Shown here: positions 3,002-18,917 of the stretch, one piece after another
Layout: the number at the start of each line of letters is the position of its first letter
Numbering within the stretch: position 1 is the first letter of the stretch
From: Phycisphaerales bacterium
GTDB taxonomy: Bacteria; Planctomycetota; Phycisphaerae; Sedimentisphaerales; Anaerohalosphaeraceae
Length of the DNA stretch: 19,404 bases
Reading direction: 5' to 3'
NCBI GenBank assembly: GCA_011053245.1
Contig: DRGS01000015.1
Location: 1 to 19,404, forward strand
The notes under the pieces: generated by a model
What the model was told of the DNA's origin: nothing
The model's database searches: none
Seen by the model: the letters and a program-made list of their open reading frames with translations, nothing else
Position numbers and translations under genes: made by a program

Positions 3002-3233
3002 ACATAAATTGAACTAAACCGCTTCGATACGGGCAACCAGAAGGGCGGTTGTCTCGTGCGGTGAACCGATAAAAGTCGAAAGGGCAAAAGATAAAAAAAC
3101 CGGAATACACGACCTGACCGAACAACTCGAACAAAACGTGCAACAACTCCTGGACGGTATATCCGTTGGATAGATGTAAATGAAACGGTTCATGGAACCT
3201 TTAATAATTCATTCCAAAGAAAGGGCTGAGACG
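3002..3233 (+). other. Intergenic region with possible gene-tail relic
   Basis: No intact gene is visible. From about 3072 to a stop at 3171-3173 a frame without a start codon reads a charged helical segment (words HDLTEQLEQ and QQLLDGI), which looks like the end of a lost coding sequence. I cannot assign it to a family. No clear terminator for the upstream glycosidase gene was found. Confidence 0.3.
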
Positions 3234-4511
3234 ATGAGAATTAAATTTAATATTGCAATGCTGTTATTATTGCTTTGCCTGCAAGGGTGTCGAGATAAGA
3301 TATGGTATTCTGTAATTACAGAAAATTGTTCGCAGCAAAGAATTTTCGACTGCAAGATGGAAGGTTGGAATCAATTTGTTATTTGGAGTGGTCATCATGC
3401 TGCGATAACAACTCCTGTTCCTGACAGTATAATTATTTCCTGGAAAACAATAAAACCAGGAAAAGAAAAAATCTATGAAGAATACGAAAAGGAATATCAG
3501 AAATATATTGATGAAGATTTTAAAAAATCCAAGGGATTCGACAGTGATGCTGAAGCTATGATGGATCTATTTTCGGCCCCTAAGGAGCCGGAAGGCATTT
3601 ATGACTATCACAAGGTTGAGGTGACTCTCAAAGATATAGTTCCCCGTAAACCTAATGGAAAAATAGAAATCACTTACATGGGCGATGAAATATTTAAGGT
3701 GGAGTTCCAAAGAGACAATGGCGGGGCAAAAGATTCTGATATGAAAAAACAGAATGTGGTGATTGAAGATGGCGTCTTAGATCTAAGTTTCTCGGAGATA
3801 ACAGGCAAAGGGTTAGCTTATCTCGAAAACCCGGAAGAGATAGAAGTGTTGGATTTAGCTGGTACCGATGTTACTGACACAGAACTGAAAAATCTAAACT
3901 TATATTCAAATCTTATTTCTCTTAACTTAAATTACTCACATATCACCGGGAAAGGTTTTGAAGGTGTAAAATTAGATAAACTGAAATCTTTGCATATGGA
4001 GTATAGCACATATCAGGATCAGTACCTGAAAAATCTATCAAATTTTGAAAACCTTAATGTGATATTTTTAATTAGAACAAATATAAGCGACATCTCTGGC
4101 TTACAAAATCTTAAGAAACTTTGGCATCTTAATCTATCAGCTAGCCCGATCTCCGACATGGGACTTAAGGATATTGCAAAACTGGAAAATTTAGAGGAAC
4201 TCTCCCTGCTTCAAACAAATGTTTCTGACAAGGGAGTAAAATATTTAACCGAATTAAAGAATCTGAGATCATTAAGACTGGGCGATACATATATTTCAGA
4301 CGCTTCTGTGCAGGAACTTTCCTCAATGCCTTCATTAATCTATTTAGAACTGTCAGGAACAGATATCACCGACAAAGCAATTGAATGGATACCCAAATTC
4401 CCAAAATTAGAGTCAGTGAATTTGCGTGGTACGCCAATATCAGAAGAAAGCCTAAGAAGTTTAAAACAGCAATGTCCAGATTTAGAAATATCAACATGGA
4501 AGAAGATTTGA
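3234..4511 (+). CDS. Leucine-rich-repeat lipoprotein
   Basis: A 425-residue exported lipoprotein. I chose ATG 3234 because AAAGG at 3220-3224 lies 9 bases upstream and the protein then begins with a compact lipoprotein signal: positive MRIK, a hydrophobic stretch, and lipobox LQGC with the lipidated Cys19. The ATG at 3180 has no ribosome site and would bury the signal. Residues 20-175 are a charged region without a recognised fold. From about 180 to the end there are roughly 24-residue leucine-rich repeats of the type N(L)..L.L..T.ISD.GL..L, close to the cysteine-free LRR class common in planctomycete surface proteins. The likely role is protein binding at the membrane; no catalytic motif is visible. 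It ends 15 bases before the thioesterase start, so the two are probably co-transcribed. Confidence 0.75.
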   Translation: MRIKFNIAMLLLLLCLQGCRDKIWYSVITENCSQQRIFDCKMEGWNQFVIWSGHHAAITTPVPDSIIISWKTIKPGKEKIYEEYEKEYQKYIDEDFKKSKGFDSDAEAMMDLFSAPKEPEGIYDYHKVEVTLKDIVPRKPNGKIEITYMGDEIFKVEFQRDNGGAKDSDMKKQNVVIEDGVLDLSFSEITGKGLAYLENPEEIEVLDLAGTDVTDTELKNLNLYSNLISLNLNYSHITGKGFEGVKLDKLKSLHMEYSTYQDQYLKNLSNFENLNVIFLIRTNISDISGLQNLKKLWHLNLSASPISDMGLKDIAKLENLEELSLLQTNVSDKGVKYLTELKNLRSLRLGDTYISDASVQELSSMPSLIYLELSGTDITDKAIEWIPKFPKLESVNLRGTPISEESLRSLKQQCPDLEISTWKKI

Positions 4512-13197: not shown

Positions 13198-13710
13198 ATC
13201 GCAAAGCCGAATTTAAGAATCAATGAAAGGATCCGCGTCACTCCCGTCAGGGTCATCAACGACAAGAACGAGCAGGTAGGCATCATCCCTACAAGAGATG
13301 CGTTGACCATGGCCAAAGAAGCATCTCTCGACCTGGTCGAGGTCTCCCCGAACGCCGAGCCGCCCGTATGCAGGATGATGGATCACGGTAAGTGGCTATA
13401 CGAACAGAAACGCAAGCATAAGCAGTCGCACAAAAAGCAGCACGTTACTACTCTCAAGGAGATCAGGCTCCGTCCAAAGATCGACGACCACGACCGCGAC
13501 ATCAAGGTAAACCACGCCATCAGGTTCCTCGAAAAGGGCCATAAGGTCCAGTTCACAATGCTATTCCGAGGACGTGAGATGACCCACATAGAGCGGGGAC
13601 ACGAGATCATGGCAGAGATCGTGGTGACACTTGAGGACAAGGCAAAGATCGAACGACCGGCGAAGATGTTAGGCAGAAGAATGACAATGGTAGTCACCAC
13701 ACTGAAATGA
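13198..13710 (+). CDS. infC: Translation initiation factor IF-3, AUC start
   Basis: IF-3 binds the 30S subunit and checks the start codon and initiator tRNA. The protein has 170 residues from ATC 13198, a normal IF-3 length: N-terminal domain with RINERIR, VINDKNEQVG and DLVEVSPNAEPPVCR (about 5-75), a lysine-rich linker helix (about 77-92), then the C-terminal domain with KEIRLRPKIDDHD and KVQFTMLFRGREMTH. The first ATG in frame, 13303, would remove most of the N-terminal domain and has no ribosome site. Known infC genes often begin with AUU, AUC or AUA, which lets IF-3 repress its own translation by rejecting the start. The gene follows thrS closely, but rpmI does not follow it here. Confidence 0.93.
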   Translation: MAKPNLRINERIRVTPVRVINDKNEQVGIIPTRDALTMAKEASLDLVEVSPNAEPPVCRMMDHGKWLYEQKRKHKQSHKKQHVTTLKEIRLRPKIDDHDRDIKVNHAIRFLEKGHKVQFTMLFRGREMTHIERGHEIMAEIVVTLEDKAKIERPAKMLGRRMTMVVTTLK

Positions 13711-13746
13711 CGACGCATACGGTCATCTAAAAACTGAAAACTGGTG

Positions 13747-13850
13747 ACACGGTCAAGATGCCTGTCGAGTCGTAGCTTTAGCGAAGACTGATGCTTGGCC
13801 GTGTGGTTGATTTCCCTTTTGTCATTCCAGCGCAGGCTGCGATCTTGACC
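13747..13850. repeat. Palindromic element with competing inverted repeats after infC
   Basis: The segment ACACGGTCAAG (13747-13757) pairs with CTTGGCCGTGT (13794-13804) with one G-T mismatch-type wobble. The same GGTCAAGAT (13751-13759) also pairs perfectly with ATCTTGACC (13842-13850), so the two folds exclude one another. Between them AGTC/GACT arms surround GCTTTAGC, and GTCATTCCAGCGCAGGCTGCG resembles an eroded REP-like unit. It lies between convergent infC and the membrane-protein gene. It may be a short mobile palindrome, a bidirectional terminator, or a structured RNA; no T run follows either stem. Confidence 0.55.
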
Positions 13851-13912
13851 CCACAATTTCAATGAACCTTCCCCATCAACACCCAATGAACAAACCGCAA
13901 AAAAACACCTAT

Positions 13913-14293
13913 TTATTTGCCTATCACATTCAAAGCTTCTTTGCAGGCCGATATCGCCATCTGTGCTTTTTCTTTATTCCCTGTTTTGCGCATTTCCATA
14001 TCGAGAGTAACGGTCCTGCGAAAAGCGATTACCTGTTTGCTGGATAAAAGCCCGATCTCAGATGCTATCGAGGTCAACATAGGGCTTGACGCCGATAGTT
14101 CTTCCCTATCGCTTTGCTCGTCAATGTACCGCTGAGCCTTTTCCATTATTGCAGTCACTTCAGCAGCGGCGATGGCCCGAATGGATTTCTTGCGTTTTCG
14201 ATTCGATAGATCAAAAAGAAACAAAGCTGTAACCAAACTGCTCAAAGAACCGATCACAGCCCCAACAATAACAGCGATTATTTGTTCCGACAT
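13913..14293 (-). CDS. Small single-pass membrane protein coupled to the TIR gene
   Basis: A 126-residue protein I cannot assign to a known family. The start ATG 14293 has GGAGG 7 bases upstream and overlaps the last 16 bases of the TIR gene, which indicates translational coupling and probably fixed stoichiometry. Residues 5-27 form one membrane helix with small residues spaced as in packing helices (GAVIGSL). RKRKK at 32-36 predicts the C-terminus inside. Residues 40-126 are charged and mainly helical (AAAEVTAIMEKAQRYIDEQ and further), possibly a coiled coil. No enzyme motif is visible. The setting suggests a membrane anchor, membrane-disrupting effector or inhibitor working with the TIR protein; this is inference from gene order alone. 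Confidence 0.75.
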   Translation of the reverse strand: MSEQIIAVIVGAVIGSLSSLVTALFLFDLSNRKRKKSIRAIAAAEVTAIMEKAQRYIDEQSDREELSASSPMLTSIASEIGLLSSKQVIAFRRTVTLDMEMRKTGNKEKAQMAISACKEALNVIGK

Positions 14294-17200
14294 TTTTTTT
14301 CCTCCGTAATACCCCAAACAAGCTGATCCATAGGGTCGGGCTCATCCTTGCGAAAATCTACCCACCCCATACCTCGAAGAAATACCGGCAGTTTTGGCTT
14401 CCTCTCACAATCTTCAAGTATAACCGGTATCACAGGACATCCGCGATTCACGAATTCACGCAAAAAGGCGTCTATCTCTGGCCCATGCCATGGACCAATT
14501 CCGCTGTCTCCTACAAATACCGCTGCCGACTTAACACTTTCAATTTGCTTTTCCAATTCCCGCTGCCATGAAAGCCCCGGCCGAAGTTCCCACTCGTCAA
14601 GCCACACCTTAAGCCCTCGCGCCTTTAACTCTTTGCCGATCTTTTTAACAGCCTCCTTGTCCCTGCTGTTATGGCATAGGAACACATCAAAGCCCTGTAT
14701 ATCTACTCCCTCCAGCAGATCCTTTACCCTGTACGACTCTTGAGCGCCCACCGGCCAATAATCCACCTGCCCAGCCTCTTCCAGCTTGATAAGATGCTCA
14801 TAATCAACGACCACCCCCTCCTCACCCGCAAGCGGCACCATCTGCTTTACTCCAAGTTTTGGGATCGTCGCATGAATACCATCAAATGAATTCCGTATAA
14901 CCGCCAGCGCCCTCCTCCTGCCCTCAAGATTGCCCTTAACCGATATAAAAACCACCCCCTTATCGACATCCGCCCGGATTAGTGCCTCGTTCCCATCAAT
15001 AGCTAACACTACACCGCTTCGCCAATATATGTGTTCTTTCGTCAGGTTATGATGCATACGCACAATAAACCGGCATATCAAACCGCTCGGCAAAACCTTA
15101 TAATGATACTCAAAGTTTAGCGACTTATCATAATCCCAGCCAAGTTCCGGCTCATTTTCACCTAACAACTCTGGTATCAGCACTCGTCTGCCGTGTCCAT
15201 CCGGAAAATCAAAGCACAACTCAAACTTCCGCATCATATCTACAATAAACTCATGCCGTTCCGTTGGATATCTTTTGGGGTCATTAAGAACTTTCCCGAT
15301 CATCCCCCACTCTAACACGCCCCCATTGTCCATCAGTTCTTTGTTGTTAATGATTTTATACACACCTTCGGTCACCCACTCAGGATTAAGTATATTGGTA
15401 TCTCTCAGATGATACGGATCCTTCGGATCGCCGAAATTCAGCACATTGCCAAGATCGTGCAAAAAGCGAAGCAGTAAATTCTGCTCACTCTCTTTGGTGA
15501 TCTTATGCTTGCGGCACAGTTTACGGAAATCCTTAGTATCGATGAAATCTTCACTCTCTGTACGCTCCTCTAATTTATGCTTTACATTAAAATAGCTTTC
15601 AGGCACCTCATCATAGACATGCCCGAGACCATTGATTTGCTTCTTTATCGCCGCTCTAAGCTCCTTTATCCCATCGCCTTTTTGACAGGATATATTAAAA
15701 AATCCCTTGATATTCGGCGCATAGTCTTTCATCAGACGGTTTTCATTCAAATCCAGATGCCCGCCATCACACTTGTTAGTAACGATAAGTACAGGCGAAT
15801 CCCCACCATAGCTTTGAATGATCTTGAGCCAGTACTGTATATTGCTTTCGTTCTTTCCTTTGCGCGCATCCAATACTAATACATACAAACTCCTCTTCGT
15901 CAAAAAGAACTGATGCGTAGCATGCATTATCTCCTGCCCGCCAAAATCCCACACATTCAACTTTATTTGTGGGCTTTTCTTGCCTTTCCTGCGCCTGCCT
16001 GCAACTTTCCAGTCCCTGATATTGATCCCCTCGGTCATTAGCTCTTCCGGGTCATAATCGTCATCGATAAGCCGTTTAACCAATGATGTCTTACCCACCC
16101 CACCCTGACCGACCAGCAAAATCTTAGCCTCTCGAAGTTCGCGCCTCGCTTCACTTCGCTGCCGAAAATAATACTCAAGAATATCCCCCGGTCTCGCTGG
16201 CTCTTCTTCTTCATCATACTCGGAACCAAGTACTTCAGGAGGTATCCCCAACTCGTCATTGCCTTGAAGATAAAGTCCTTTCAACTTTTTTAATTGCCTG
16301 ATTTCGGTAGGCAAAGAGACCAGATTGTTGTCCTGTAGATAAAGTTCTGTCAGTCTTTTCAATTGGCCGATTTCGGTGGGCAATGAAGTCATATTATTGC
16401 CGCCCAGAAAAAGTTCTGTTAGATTTTTTAATTGACCGATTTCGGCGGGCGCAGAGGACAGCTTATTGGGGCTCAGATAAAGTCCTGTCAGATTTATTAA
16501 TTGGCCGATTTCGGCGGGCACAGAGGTTAGATTATTGGCGCCCAGAAAAAGCGTTGTCAGGTTTATTAATTGGCAAACCTCGGCGGACAGAGAGGTTAGT
16601 TTATTGTTGTACAGCCAAAGTTCTGTCAGGTTTTTCAACTTGACAATCTCAGAAGGCAATGCTGTCAACTGGTTATCGTAAGGGTTCAGAGTACGCAGAT
16701 TTGTCAGCTTGCCTATCTCAGGAGGCAATGCTGTCAACTGGTTATCATAAAGATATAGTTCTTTTAGGTTTGTCAGCTTGCCTATCTCAGGCGGTAATGC
16801 TGTCAACTTCATACTACTCAAGTCAAGCGATTCGCTGTTTTCCCTTGCCGCCTTTTCGATCCTTGCAAGAGCCTTGTCATAGGCCCGCCGCTCTTCTTCG
16901 TTCTTTTCCCGCAAATACGCCAATATCGCTTCCGTCCCCTGCTTAACTATTTCCGACGGCGGCGATTCAAGGGGATTGCCGCCAAGCTCCAGCGTTTCCA
17001 GATTTGTCAGCTCGCCCATCTCAGGAGGCAACGCTGTCAACTGGTTGTCTTCAAGGCCCAGCCTTTGCAGATTGCTCAAATTGCCCATCTCAGGAGGCAA
17101 TGCTGTCAACTGGTTTTTGTCAAAACTCAGTGTTTGCAGATTTGTCAGCTTGCTTATCTCAGCAGGCAATGCTGCCAACTGGTTCCCGTCAAGGTTCAGT

Positions 17201-17565
17201 CCTTGCAGATTTATCAGCTTGGATATCTCAGGAGGTAATGTTGTCAACTGGTTGCCATGAAGATACAGTTCCGGTAACTTTGTCAGAGTGAATATCTCAG
17301 GAGGCAAAGCAGTCAACTGGTTGCCGCCAAAATTTAGCATTTGCAAATTTGTCAGCCTGCCTATCTCAGGAGACAATGCTGCCAGCTGGTTGCCATAAAG
17401 GCTCAATGTTTTCAGATTTGTCAGCTTACCTATCTCAGGAGGCAATGCTGTCAACCTCATATAACTCAAGTCAAGCGATTCGCTATTTCCCCTTCCTGCC
17501 TCTTCGATCTTTGCAAGAGCCTTATCATAGGCCAGTCGCTGTTCTTTATTCATTTCTTTCGCCAT
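14278..17565 (-). CDS. LRR-Roc-COR-TIR protein (ROCO-family, NLR-like)
   Basis: A 1095-residue multidomain protein. Order: short helical cap YDKALAKIEEA (13-23) and 23-residue LRRs of the LTALPPEIG type; the cap and LRR block restart at 229 and run to about 450; Roc GTPase with P-loop GQGGVGKTS (486-494), DFGGQE (540-545), NKCD (597-600); COR dimerisation region (about 660-945); C-terminal TIR from D960 (DVFLCHNSRDK) with VWLDEWEL and WHGPE, whose E1030 matches the catalytic glutamate of NAD-cleaving TIRs. Cytoplasmic, no signal. By family knowledge LRRs sense, Roc-COR switches, and TIR acts as NADase or scaffold. The start ATG 17565 follows AAGGA by 10 bases. A small membrane protein overlaps its 3-prime end. 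A role in phage defence or cell suicide is inferred, not shown. Confidence 0.9.
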   Translation of the reverse strand: MAKEMNKEQRLAYDKALAKIEEAGRGNSESLDLSYMRLTALPPEIGKLTNLKTLSLYGNQLAALSPEIGRLTNLQMLNFGGNQLTALPPEIFTLTKLPELYLHGNQLTTLPPEISKLINLQGLNLDGNQLAALPAEISKLTNLQTLSFDKNQLTALPPEMGNLSNLQRLGLEDNQLTALPPEMGELTNLETLELGGNPLESPPSEIVKQGTEAILAYLREKNEEERRAYDKALARIEKAARENSESLDLSSMKLTALPPEIGKLTNLKELYLYDNQLTALPPEIGKLTNLRTLNPYDNQLTALPSEIVKLKNLTELWLYNNKLTSLSAEVCQLINLTTLFLGANNLTSVPAEIGQLINLTGLYLSPNKLSSAPAEIGQLKNLTELFLGGNNMTSLPTEIGQLKRLTELYLQDNNLVSLPTEIRQLKKLKGLYLQGNDELGIPPEVLGSEYDEEEEPARPGDILEYYFRQRSEARRELREAKILLVGQGGVGKTSLVKRLIDDDYDPEELMTEGINIRDWKVAGRRRKGKKSPQIKLNVWDFGGQEIMHATHQFFLTKRSLYVLVLDARKGKNESNIQYWLKIIQSYGGDSPVLIVTNKCDGGHLDLNENRLMKDYAPNIKGFFNISCQKGDGIKELRAAIKKQINGLGHVYDEVPESYFNVKHKLEERTESEDFIDTKDFRKLCRKHKITKESEQNLLLRFLHDLGNVLNFGDPKDPYHLRDTNILNPEWVTEGVYKIINNKELMDNGGVLEWGMIGKVLNDPKRYPTERHEFIVDMMRKFELCFDFPDGHGRRVLIPELLGENEPELGWDYDKSLNFEYHYKVLPSGLICRFIVRMHHNLTKEHIYWRSGVVLAIDGNEALIRADVDKGVVFISVKGNLEGRRRALAVIRNSFDGIHATIPKLGVKQMVPLAGEEGVVVDYEHLIKLEEAGQVDYWPVGAQESYRVKDLLEGVDIQGFDVFLCHNSRDKEAVKKIGKELKARGLKVWLDEWELRPGLSWQRELEKQIESVKSAAVFVGDSGIGPWHGPEIDAFLREFVNRGCPVIPVILEDCERKPKLPVFLRGMGWVDFRKDEPDPMDQLVWGITEEKKCRNK
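16255..17500. repeat. Tandem 69-bp LRR-coding repeats with a 648-bp block duplication
   Basis: The DNA shows imperfect units of about 69 bp (23 codons), each with a word close to TCAGGAGGCAATGCTGTCAACTGG on the plus strand in the right part, and a more diverged set starting near 16255 with CGGCGGGCACAGAGG-like words. The N-terminal cap plus LRR start appears twice, near 17450-17565 and 16802-16917, at a 648-base offset and with high base identity. This marks an internal duplication. Such arrays can expand or contract by recombination. Confidence 0.75.
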
Positions 17566-17615
17566 AACCGCCTGATCCTTAATTTTACATTACGAACTAC
17601 AACTGCATACCCGCC

Positions 17616-17644
17616 ATTATCTACGATTATTGCCTGATTGTAAA
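17616..17644 (-). promoter_or_regulatory. Promoter of the LRR-Roc-COR-TIR unit
   Basis: On the minus strand TTTACA (17644-17639), 17-base spacer, GATAAT (17621-17616). Predicted start near 17609 gives a leader of about 44 bases. Confidence 0.6.
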
Positions 17645-17735
17645 GCAAAAAGGCGTATTTTACCACCGAAGAACCCCGTTTATTGGAGTATAAATAGAAG
17701 ACTTTAATTTTTTTTGTATTTTTCCAATTTTTTTC
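17645..17735. other. AT-rich spacer between divergent promoters
   Basis: No gene is seen. The segment is rich in T runs on the plus strand (17705-17735) and separates the minus-strand TIR-unit promoter from the plus-strand cold-shock promoter. Confidence 0.5.
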
Positions 17736-17763
17736 TTGAACTATCCTGCTCCATAGCGATAAT
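17736..17763 (+). promoter_or_regulatory. Promoter of the cold-shock gene
   Basis: TTGAAC (17736-17741), 16-base spacer, GATAAT (17758-17763). Predicted start near 17770 gives an unusually long leader of about 98 bases for a 69-residue protein. Confidence 0.6.
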
Positions 17764-17783
17764 TAGTTTTTTGTTGGGCGTGT

Positions 17784-17860
17784 CCTCTCACCTCTCGAGG
17801 GCAGAGTTTGACTAAATATGATTGAGAGGTAAGTTAAAGGGTCTGTAGCAGACCAAGGAG
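17784..17860 (+). promoter_or_regulatory. Structured leader of the cold-shock mRNA
   Basis: CCTCTC occurs twice (17784-17789 and 17791-17796); either copy can pair with GAGAGG at 17824-17829, the second giving a 7-bp ACCTCTC/GAGAGGT stem. A second hairpin GGTCTG-TAG-CAGACC (17840-17854) abuts the ribosome site AAGGAG (17855-17860). The layout resembles cold-responsive leaders of CspA-type genes, where pairing changes with temperature and exposes the ribosome site. Confidence 0.5.
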
Positions 17861-17867
17861 TATTAAG

Positions 17868-18077
17868 TTGAGTACAGGTACAGTAAAGTGGTTTAATGCA
17901 AGCAAAGGTTTCGGTTTTATCACCCCAGACGATGGTGGCAACGATTTGTTCGTACATCATTCAGAGGTTAAGGTCGAAGGTTATGCGACACTCGATGAGA
18001 ATCAAAAGGTCGAGTACGAAGTTGGTGAAGGCAAAAAGGGTCCATGTGCAAACAATGTAACCCCTGTCCAAGCCTAA
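17868..18077 (+). CDS. Cold-shock domain protein, TTG start
   Basis: A 69-residue nucleic-acid chaperone of the CspA class that binds single-stranded RNA or DNA and melts secondary structure. The TTG at 17868 is fixed by AAGGAG 7 bases upstream and gives the usual N-terminus [20 protein letters not shown]1 (KGFGFI) and RNP2 (LFVHHSEV) are complete, with the aromatic binding residues present. Length matches the family. It is monocistronic, with its own promoter, a structured leader, and a strong terminator after the stop. The TTG start may lower translation. The particular paralogue (cspA, cspC or other) cannot be named from sequence. Confidence 0.93.
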
Positions 18078-18501: not shown

Positions 18502-18564
18502 CCCGGCTTCTATCAGCTGCCGCAGCGGGTCAATAGAAACATACAAACGAAAGGAAAGCTGATA
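18502..18564 (+). promoter_or_regulatory. Candidate L20 translational operator before rplT
   Basis: TATCAGCT (18511-18518) is perfectly complementary to AGCTGATA (18557-18564), which includes the A of the rplT start codon. This pairing would place the ribosome site AAGGA (18551-18555) in a loop and hide the start. It excludes the local hairpin GCTG-CCG-CAGC (18516-18526), itself flanked by TTCTAT (18508-18513) and ATAGAA (18533-18538). In several bacteria L20 represses its own operon by binding leader RNA that mimics 23S rRNA; whether this leader does so is inferred. Confidence 0.5.
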
Positions 18565-18917
18565 TGCCAAGAGTAAGAAAAGGTGCCGCAAGGCGCAGAG
18601 CACACAAAAGAACCCTAAAAGCAGTCAAAGGCCATCGCGGCGCACCAGGCAGATGTTATCGTCTCGCAATACAGGGCCAGACTCGCGCAAACGTAAACGC
18701 ACGCATCGGTCGCAAACTCAAAAAACGCGATTTCCGCGGACTATGGATCATCCGGATCAGTGCCGCCTGCGTTCAGAGAGGCATCCGCTACAGCCAGTTC
18801 ATCAACGGTCTAAAGAAAGCAAACATCGAGCTTAACCGCAAGATGCTAAGCGAGATCGCCATTGCCGACCCCGCCGCTTTCGACACGATCGTCGAACAAG
18901 CCAAAGCGGCACTCTAA
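18564..18917 (+). CDS. rplT: 50S ribosomal protein L20
   Basis: A 117-residue basic protein needed for early 50S assembly; it binds 23S rRNA. The N-terminus PRVRKGAARRRAHKR and the later LWIIRISAACVQRGIRYSQFINGLKKA segment are diagnostic, and the length is standard. AAGGA at 18551-18555 lies 8 bases before the ATG. It follows rpmI and precedes pheS by 52 bases, the usual order. The unusually structured leader suggests feedback control by L20. Confidence 0.97.
   Translation: MPRVRKGAARRRAHKRTLKAVKGHRGAPGRCYRLAIQGQTRANVNARIGRKLKKRDFRGLWIIRISAACVQRGIRYSQFINGLKKANIELNRKMLSEIAIADPAAFDTIVEQAKAAL

Follow-up and report, generated by a model that had tools for sequence, protein, structure and literature searches.

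The window analysed here, the whole stretch of 19,404 nucleotides from contig DRGS01000015.1 of a Phycisphaerales bacterium, carries on its reverse strand two overlapping genes. One encodes a receptor-like protein that joins leucine-rich repeats (LRRs), a Roc GTPase, a COR region and a TIR domain, and the other encodes a small membrane protein. The open reading frame (ORF) of the receptor (14278..17565, protein P0001) gives 1095 residues from its ATG, and several LRR families, Roc, COR-A, COR-B and TIR_2 score above the Pfam gathering cut-offs; ORF call and domains agree with the 1095-residue protein that an earlier note on this DNA had described. From the N-terminus, all on the reverse strand, the protein consists of a first LRR array (residues 1-216; 16918..17565; Pfam and model) with an N-cap helix at residues 7-25, a second array (217-440; 16246..16917) with a second cap helix at 211-241 in the model, Roc (481-600; 15766..16125; Pfam E 1.4e-33), COR-A (655-801; 15163..15603; Pfam E 2e-42), COR-B (814-953; 14707..15126; Pfam E 4e-31) and TIR (961-1083; 14317..14685; Pfam TIR_2 E 1.7e-25, AbTIR E 1.4e-6). 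The boundaries of the two arrays (~1-216 and 217-440) are our own division.

The GTPase motifs, all intact, and the WxxxE site of the TIR lie where the earlier note had placed them: GQGGVGKTS at 486-494, DFGGQE at 540-545, NKCD at 597-600, and W1026 followed by the WxxxE glutamate E1030 (codon at 14476..14478, reverse strand), which was assigned by conservation and by alignment with AbTIR. When the window receptor was aligned with 25 hand-chosen TIR-bearing relatives (26 sequences in all), K492, T493, T511, D540, Q544, W1026 and E1030 were invariant (26/26). NKCD is less strict: N597 is N in 25 of the 26 with one gap, and position 600 holds D in 14 sequences and E in 11, the remaining one having a gap there. 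A phmmer search of the PDB with the receptor matches the Roco protein CtRoco (6hlu) at E 3.6e-106, with the best stretch at residues 468-954, and the solved TIRs nearest to the receptor TIR include the NAD(+) hydrolase AbTIR, with E1030 aligned to the WxxxE-type glutamate. This glutamate, by which a catalytic TIR NADase is recognized, has a catalytic role in AbTIR-type TIRs and is present in the receptor.

The AlphaFold model of the receptor (built with the 26 sequences; mean pLDDT 82.2, pTM 0.56) has two LRR solenoids, split by a 31-residue helix (211-241) that repeats the N-terminal cap. The two arrays are 57.8% identical across 204 amino acids, and one 263-base stretch of their DNA is 81% identical between them, so the LRR duplication looks fairly recent from sequence. 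The duplication comprises the whole array together with its cap helix (16246-17565), and a single array is present in the four relatives whose N-termini were read (P0124-P0127).

The LRRs are also the part of the protein that differs most among relatives. In best local alignments with nine relatives, identity is 36-64% in the LRRs, 64-86% in Roc, 60-81% in COR and 50-76% in TIR, and the LRRs are the least identical part in all nine; the predicted sensor varies and the predicted switch is kept. At the other end of the protein, the window TIR is matched at E <= 1e-5 by 38 of the best 120 listed relatives, and 53 of these 120 carry TIR_2 by our count of precomputed Pfam annotation; the remaining ones have other C-terminal modules, some with hydrophobic stretches. 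The putative effector module at the C-terminus is thus exchangeable among relatives. The closest listed TIR-ROCO is 81% identical to the window receptor and partial, and the next is 74% identical. The window's own 1095-residue protein is missing from both listings of relatives, which means that the protein database is incomplete for the receptor.

The same type of TIR, with about 53-73% identity within the local alignments, recurs across proteins with very different domains, including WD40 and WD40-GTPase, TPR, NTPase, caspase, phosphoesterase and nucleoside phosphorylase proteins. Such fusion of one TIR type to many effectors and switches, and its likeness to effector-associated domains, would fit an adaptor or polymerising domain that recruits TIR or effector proteins and is no enzyme itself, and filament formation by TIRs is discussed in PMC8195603. 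However, W1026 and E1030 are kept in 26/26 sequences, as a catalytic glutamate would be, and we consider a purely recruiting TIR unlikely.

A class to which the receptor can be assigned has already been proposed. In Kaur, Iyer, Burroughs and Aravind 2021 (PMC8195603, section 15 and Fig. 6D), AP-GTPase proteins are predicted to be a counter-invader class. Fast-evolving LRRs at the N-terminus are followed by the AP-GTPase (Roc) and COR, and the C-terminal effector varies (at least 24, TIR being named); some bacteria are described as carrying several paralogues with different effectors per genome. The receptor has N-terminal LRRs, Roc with COR, a variable C-terminal effector and rapidly evolving LRRs. 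Judged by these features, it is a further member of this already described, predicted class and no undescribed kind of protein.

We postulate that the receptor is a sensor, switch and effector in one polypeptide of the AP-GTPase class, that its TIR cleaves NAD+ and stops the infected cell, and that the small gene is separate; we hold this account to be reasonably likely. The receptor itself is probably an abortive-infection NADase. The domains, the intact motifs, the conservation pattern, the defence-type context of distant relatives and the missing linkage in the DNA covered are direct observations; the trigger, the GTP-driven opening modelled on CtRoco, NAD cleavage and growth arrest are inferred. 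The doubled LRR solenoid would bind a trigger linked to the invader. By analogy with CtRoco, binding would favor the GTP state of Roc-COR, upon which the LRRs could swing away and the dimer change; GTP-bound CtRoco is described as monomeric, with its LRR rotated by about 135 degrees, in PMC11052575. The opened receptor might then free, expose or cluster the C-terminal TIR, which could cleave NAD+ or make an ADP-ribose signal, and the infected cell would stop growing. The 126-residue membrane protein would be the product of a separate conserved gene whose start overlaps the receptor gene.

Distant relatives of the receptor are found in a defence context. In a collection of 2.9 million viral contigs, a first scan with the receptor found none, and three later pattern scans (two with alignments) found four Roco contigs. 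One of them, IMG/VR contig 3300028585_000519 (69 kb; regions L034 and L035), encodes a full LRR-Roc-COR-TIR protein of 1028 residues. Here, an Old/AriA-like ATPase, an AriAB gene (PARIS-like), the LRR-Roc-COR-TIR gene and an integrase-like gene stand in a row (L034:3384-11484). The AriAB-type gene (PADLOC E 1.7e-133) and the ATPase gene lie directly ahead of this LRR-Roc-COR-TIR gene, and the product of the integrase-like gene has a Phage_integrase match below the Pfam cut-off and an Arm domain above it. A second contig (L038) encodes an LRR-Roc-COR-TIR protein that lacks its start, where the contig ends; an integrase gene follows 1.3 kb downstream. In the other two (L036, L037), the Roco has no TIR match and terminase genes are present on the contig, and the Roco in L036 adjoins an SMC-type ATPase.

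The small gene (13913..14293, reverse strand) encodes 126 residues from an ATG at 14293 and shares its first 16 bases (14278-14293) with the end of the receptor ORF. A Shine-Dalgarno-like GGAGG (14301..14305, reverse strand, read from the sequence) lies within the large ORF, 7 bases ahead of this ATG. The protein, which belongs to no known family, has a single membrane helix at its N-terminus, followed by a helical domain. Its model (mean pLDDT 90.8) shows a long N-terminal helix followed by shorter ones, and it has 126 homologues at E <= 0.01, of which the best 120 are listed. Because of these homologues and the confident model, the ORF is real, beyond chance. ORF, homologues and model all bear out the single-pass membrane protein that the earlier note saw beginning in the last 16 bases of the receptor gene. 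Positive residues follow the hydrophobic stretch, which suggests that the helical domain would face the cytoplasm.

Searches in Pfam, NCBIfam and PADLOC assigned no family to the small protein. Searches with 75 members of the small family in Pfam, and in PHROGs and the PDB, at loose thresholds gave weak, scattered matches only, and fold searches with the model returned only common helical bundles. Among the best 120 of the 126 homologues, the named matches come from Planctomycetota (P0047 and P0048, ACYS18_06490 and ISS79_01490, are planctomycete proteins), Phycisphaerae and one member of the Chloroflexota, and 47 of the 120 listed clusters, the window's own included, share 88% identity or more with the window protein. 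In two members (P0120, P0122), the conserved helical domain stands behind other N-termini, with no Pfam match, that replace the membrane helix. No match to the small protein was found among plasmids or phages, none to window 13700-14400 among plasmids, and nothing in the viral collection in one scan with an alignment of the small family.

The earlier note had taken the small protein for a dedicated partner of the receptor and proposed that its homologues be sought beside TIR-ROCO genes and near defence islands. A pattern search for the small gene in a genome collection of 84,980 species found two loci. In a SAR202 genome (L001), the gene lies between a his-type biosynthesis cluster, by our reading of the ORFs, and a DUF1385 gene; in an Actinomycetes genome (L002), it comes after a tyrosine recombinase. 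Neither locus has an adjoining Roco, within 4.0 kb before and 1.1 kb after the gene at L001 and within 10 kb on each side at L002. At E <= 0.001, the genome with L002 (G002, completeness not stated) has no match to Roc-COR-TIR, and that with L001 (G001, completeness likewise not stated) has one Roc-like and four TIR-like stretches and no COR-A. Wider draws of genomes contained the small family in the seed genomes only (1/251 and 1/294 for G001; 1/248 and 1/3 for G002). The small gene in L002 is part of an island (L002:2405-19955) with two tyrosine recombinases, an SMC-type ATPase that resembles Ppl of PADLOC and a JAB-like and ThiF/E1-like pair.

The converse comparison began from the receptors. 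In a Chloroflexota set of 400 genomes, 23 Roco or TIR loci were located at E <= 1e-40, spread over 17 genomes, and the small family was found in none of these 23 loci (E <= 10). Nineteen of the 23 stretches reach at least 4.6 kb past the 3' end of the receptor; the others end after 59 (L060), 320 (L072), 320 (L074) and 312 (L077) bases. By profile, the TIR part is reached in one locus only (L018, Roc and TIR without a COR match), so that this count tests Rocos at large more than TIR-ROCOs. The small family was also found in none of the four Roco contigs of the viral collection, two of which have TIR, within the contig DNA examined. We also looked for co-occurrence by matching contig sizes between the 120 listed small-protein contigs and 224 Roco or TIR contigs (119 + 105); none was common to both sets, and we gave this comparison no weight, since it missed its positive control, the window's own pair.

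Based on these loci, the gene of the 126-residue protein seems to be independent of the receptor and no fixed partner to it, and a conserved pair or system of the two is not supported. The dedicated partnership fails at both genome loci (2/2), and at the loci read outside the window, which come from Chloroflexota, Actinomycetes and the viral collection, small gene and TIR-ROCO were never adjacent. Defence-type genes lie around the small gene at L002, with no Roco at either locus. The earlier reading as an immune module survives in part: the architecture, the motifs, the likeness to AbTIR and the defence-type context of distant relatives speak for it, and the dedicated membrane partner is not supported. 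We take the result for the small gene as a caution against mistaking one overlapping gene pair for a system.

A TIR-ROCO with a different membrane-protein gene beside it is found in L038. Here, 52 bases 3' of the TIR-ROCO gene, lies a gene (L038:2357-2788) for a protein of 143 residues (P0348) with several hydrophobic stretches, as judged by eye, and a sequence unrelated to that of the window's 126-residue protein. P0348 matches 120 plasmid records (E <= 1e-8) and three phage records (E <= 1e-6). Sixteen regions of these 123 records were opened (L039-L054; plasmids and phages, from bacteria and haloarchaea), and 14 of them have a gene annotated as TIR, or noted as ThsB in the phage, within 2.5 kb of the P0348-family gene; two (H18, H22) have no TIR gene within that distance. 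Not every case is independent, as H28 and H35 have an identical TIR protein, and H13 was chosen because its record already named a TIR gene. Neither the 23 Chloroflexota loci nor L035-L037 carry the P0348 family, which leaves L038 as its sole case beside a Roco. One literature search at the level of listings gave no paper title on a pair of TIR and P0348-type membrane protein.

These observations bear on two ways in which the receptor could work through a membrane protein. In the first, the window pair is one defence module, with the 126-residue protein acting as membrane effector, anchor or inhibitor through a nucleotide signal made by the TIR or through direct binding. The genes overlap, the Shine-Dalgarno-like site lies inside the receptor gene and both genes occupy a common insert between infC and rpmI; L038 offers a parallel in a TIR-ROCO with a membrane protein whose relatives lie near TIR genes (14/16), and at L002 the small family shares an island with defence-type genes and integrases. 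We nevertheless judge a single module to be quite unlikely: no Roco adjoins the small gene at L001 or L002 and their genomes have no Roc-COR match, the small family is in 0/23 Chloroflexota loci and 0/4 viral-collection Roco contigs within the DNA covered, the partner family of L038 is unrelated and absent from the 23 loci, and 47 of the best 120 small-protein clusters reach 88% identity or more with the window protein, as against 81% and then 74% for the listed TIR-ROCOs. In the second, TIR-ROCOs use exchangeable small membrane partners, the P0348 family in L038 and a captured single-helix family in the window, and a nucleotide signal from the switched TIR, or direct contact, would trigger the membrane protein encoded next to it. 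L038 keeps alive the idea of a TIR that works with a membrane protein, of another family than the window's. The absence of the P0348 family from the 23 Chloroflexota loci weakens the reading, which we think improbable; if it is true, an NLR-like receptor drives a membrane effector.

If the small gene is separate, as we favor, a possible history of the overlap can be sketched. Seven of the best 120 listed relatives of the small protein (P0008, P0013, P0014, P0022, P0029, P0041, P0045) have an N-terminal extension that contains FGVLY (IGVLY in P0013) before the usual start. Back-translated FGVL has a single fit in the window, with both strands searched, and this fit is at the end of the receptor gene: TTTGGGGTATTA (14307..14318, reverse strand) encodes part of the receptor's VWGIT and fits the FGVL leader of these relatives. 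Several TIR-ROCO relatives end in WGITG-type tails, and the tail of the window receptor after WGIT is, in the other frame, the ribosome-binding site and start of the small gene. This is a hint that the leader of the small gene came to hold the end of the receptor gene; a junction at the shared short FGVL sequence would produce the overlap without any functional link. Given WGIT at Roco C-termini, the FGVL fit has a probability of about one in 50 by hand estimate and may be due to chance. Read by hand in the other frame from degenerate codons as a Roco C-terminus, the leaders of P0008, P0022, P0029 and P0045 would allow LVWG, those of P0013 and P0041 would not, and that of P0014 is too short.

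The pair lies between infC (IF-3; 13303..13710) and rpmI (L35; 18282..18479), both on the forward strand. Pfam calls these two as well as rplT (18564-18917) and a cold-shock gene (17868-18077) between the pair and rpmI. The usual gene order is infC-rpmI-rplT, and by our reading the interval from infC to rpmI holds only the receptor gene, the small gene and the cold-shock gene. Near the ends of the insert, 13601-13925 and 17556-17900 have no repeat of 9-12 bases in common, direct or inverted. The listed ORF of IF-3 begins within the IF3_N domain (profile positions 30-69), and the true start of infC is probably a rare codon further upstream. Elsewhere in the window (3180-4511) is a gene for a second LRR protein, of 443 residues, with a GC content of 0.357 compared with 0.455 for the window.

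Several observations weigh against a defence NADase with a separate small gene. The pair sits amid housekeeping genes, and PADLOC, run on 10 window proteins, gave TIR-to-TIR and response-regulator matches only and no other defence gene. None of 50,697 phage records matches the Roc-COR-TIR part, and 12 of 72,556 plasmid records do, none covering 80% of the query. The Rocos of the viral collection are distant: that of L034 is 25% identical to the window protein, and the others are 26-31% identical to the L034 protein. The matches of the receptor TIR to solved NADases are modest, with E about 1e-6, and the open-licence literature yielded no experimental test of a prokaryotic TIR-ROCO, for example against phage. 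With regard to the small gene, the overlap, the strand and the insert common to both genes would suit an operon, and the linkage counts were made in genomes outside the Planctomycetota, the likely main home of the small family.

Some of these points would also suit a TIR-ROCO that serves internal signalling, such as in stress or development, and has no role in defence. The housekeeping genes around the pair and the lack of phage records and scarcity of plasmid records that match are consistent with such a role, and stress-responsive ROCO genes of brown algae are reported in PMC11378527, as is a TPR-ROCO-TIR protein in a red alga. On the other hand, the Rocos of the viral collection lie beside defence genes, terminases and integrases, and the LRRs are variable; we doubt that the receptor is confined to internal signalling.

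To our knowledge, the natural role of prokaryotic LRR-Roc-COR proteins, the relatives of LRRK2, has had no experimental test. If the TIR-bearing Rocos are NADases triggered by phage, an assayable biological output would be assigned to the Roco GTPase cycle, and plant TIR-NLRs and animal NLRs would have a counterpart that is switched by a GTPase. Concrete test cases are the window protein and that of L034, whose gene neighbourhood speaks most plainly for defence.

The known TIR defence systems differ from the window in their other components. Among the 10 window proteins scanned, none matches the ThsA profile that Thoeris would require, and none is a short Argonaute, the mark of SPARTA, of which the matches are TIR-to-TIR only; nor is there a CD-NTase among them, or a SAVED or STING fusion in the receptor by Pfam, as CBASS with a TIR effector would have. 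Bacterial NLR-like NACHT proteins also have an NTPase switch between sensor and effector and are alike in outline, but the receptor GTPase is of the Ras clade, and Pfam finds no NACHT or NB-ARC ATPase in the receptor. The P0348 pairs also combine a TIR gene with a small membrane gene, but their membrane proteins have several hydrophobic stretches and an unrelated sequence and are found on plasmids and phages. AbTIR-type NAD+ hydrolases share the TIR sequence and the WxxxE glutamate with the receptor; the four best solved TIR chains have 137-184 residues, whereas in the window the TIR forms the last part of a GTPase-switch protein. The receptor has LRR-Roc-COR in common with CtRoco of Chlorobaculum tepidum (PDB 6hlu, 8r4b) and adds the TIR; in PMC11052575, bacterial Rocos are portrayed as LRR-Roc-COR only. 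The earlier note knew of no described system with this pair of genes. Section 15 of PMC8195603 describes the class of the receptor and makes no mention of the overlapping membrane-protein gene. The AP-GTPase class described there has the same layout of LRR, Roc, COR and effector, and the window receptor differs in having two LRR arrays with two caps.

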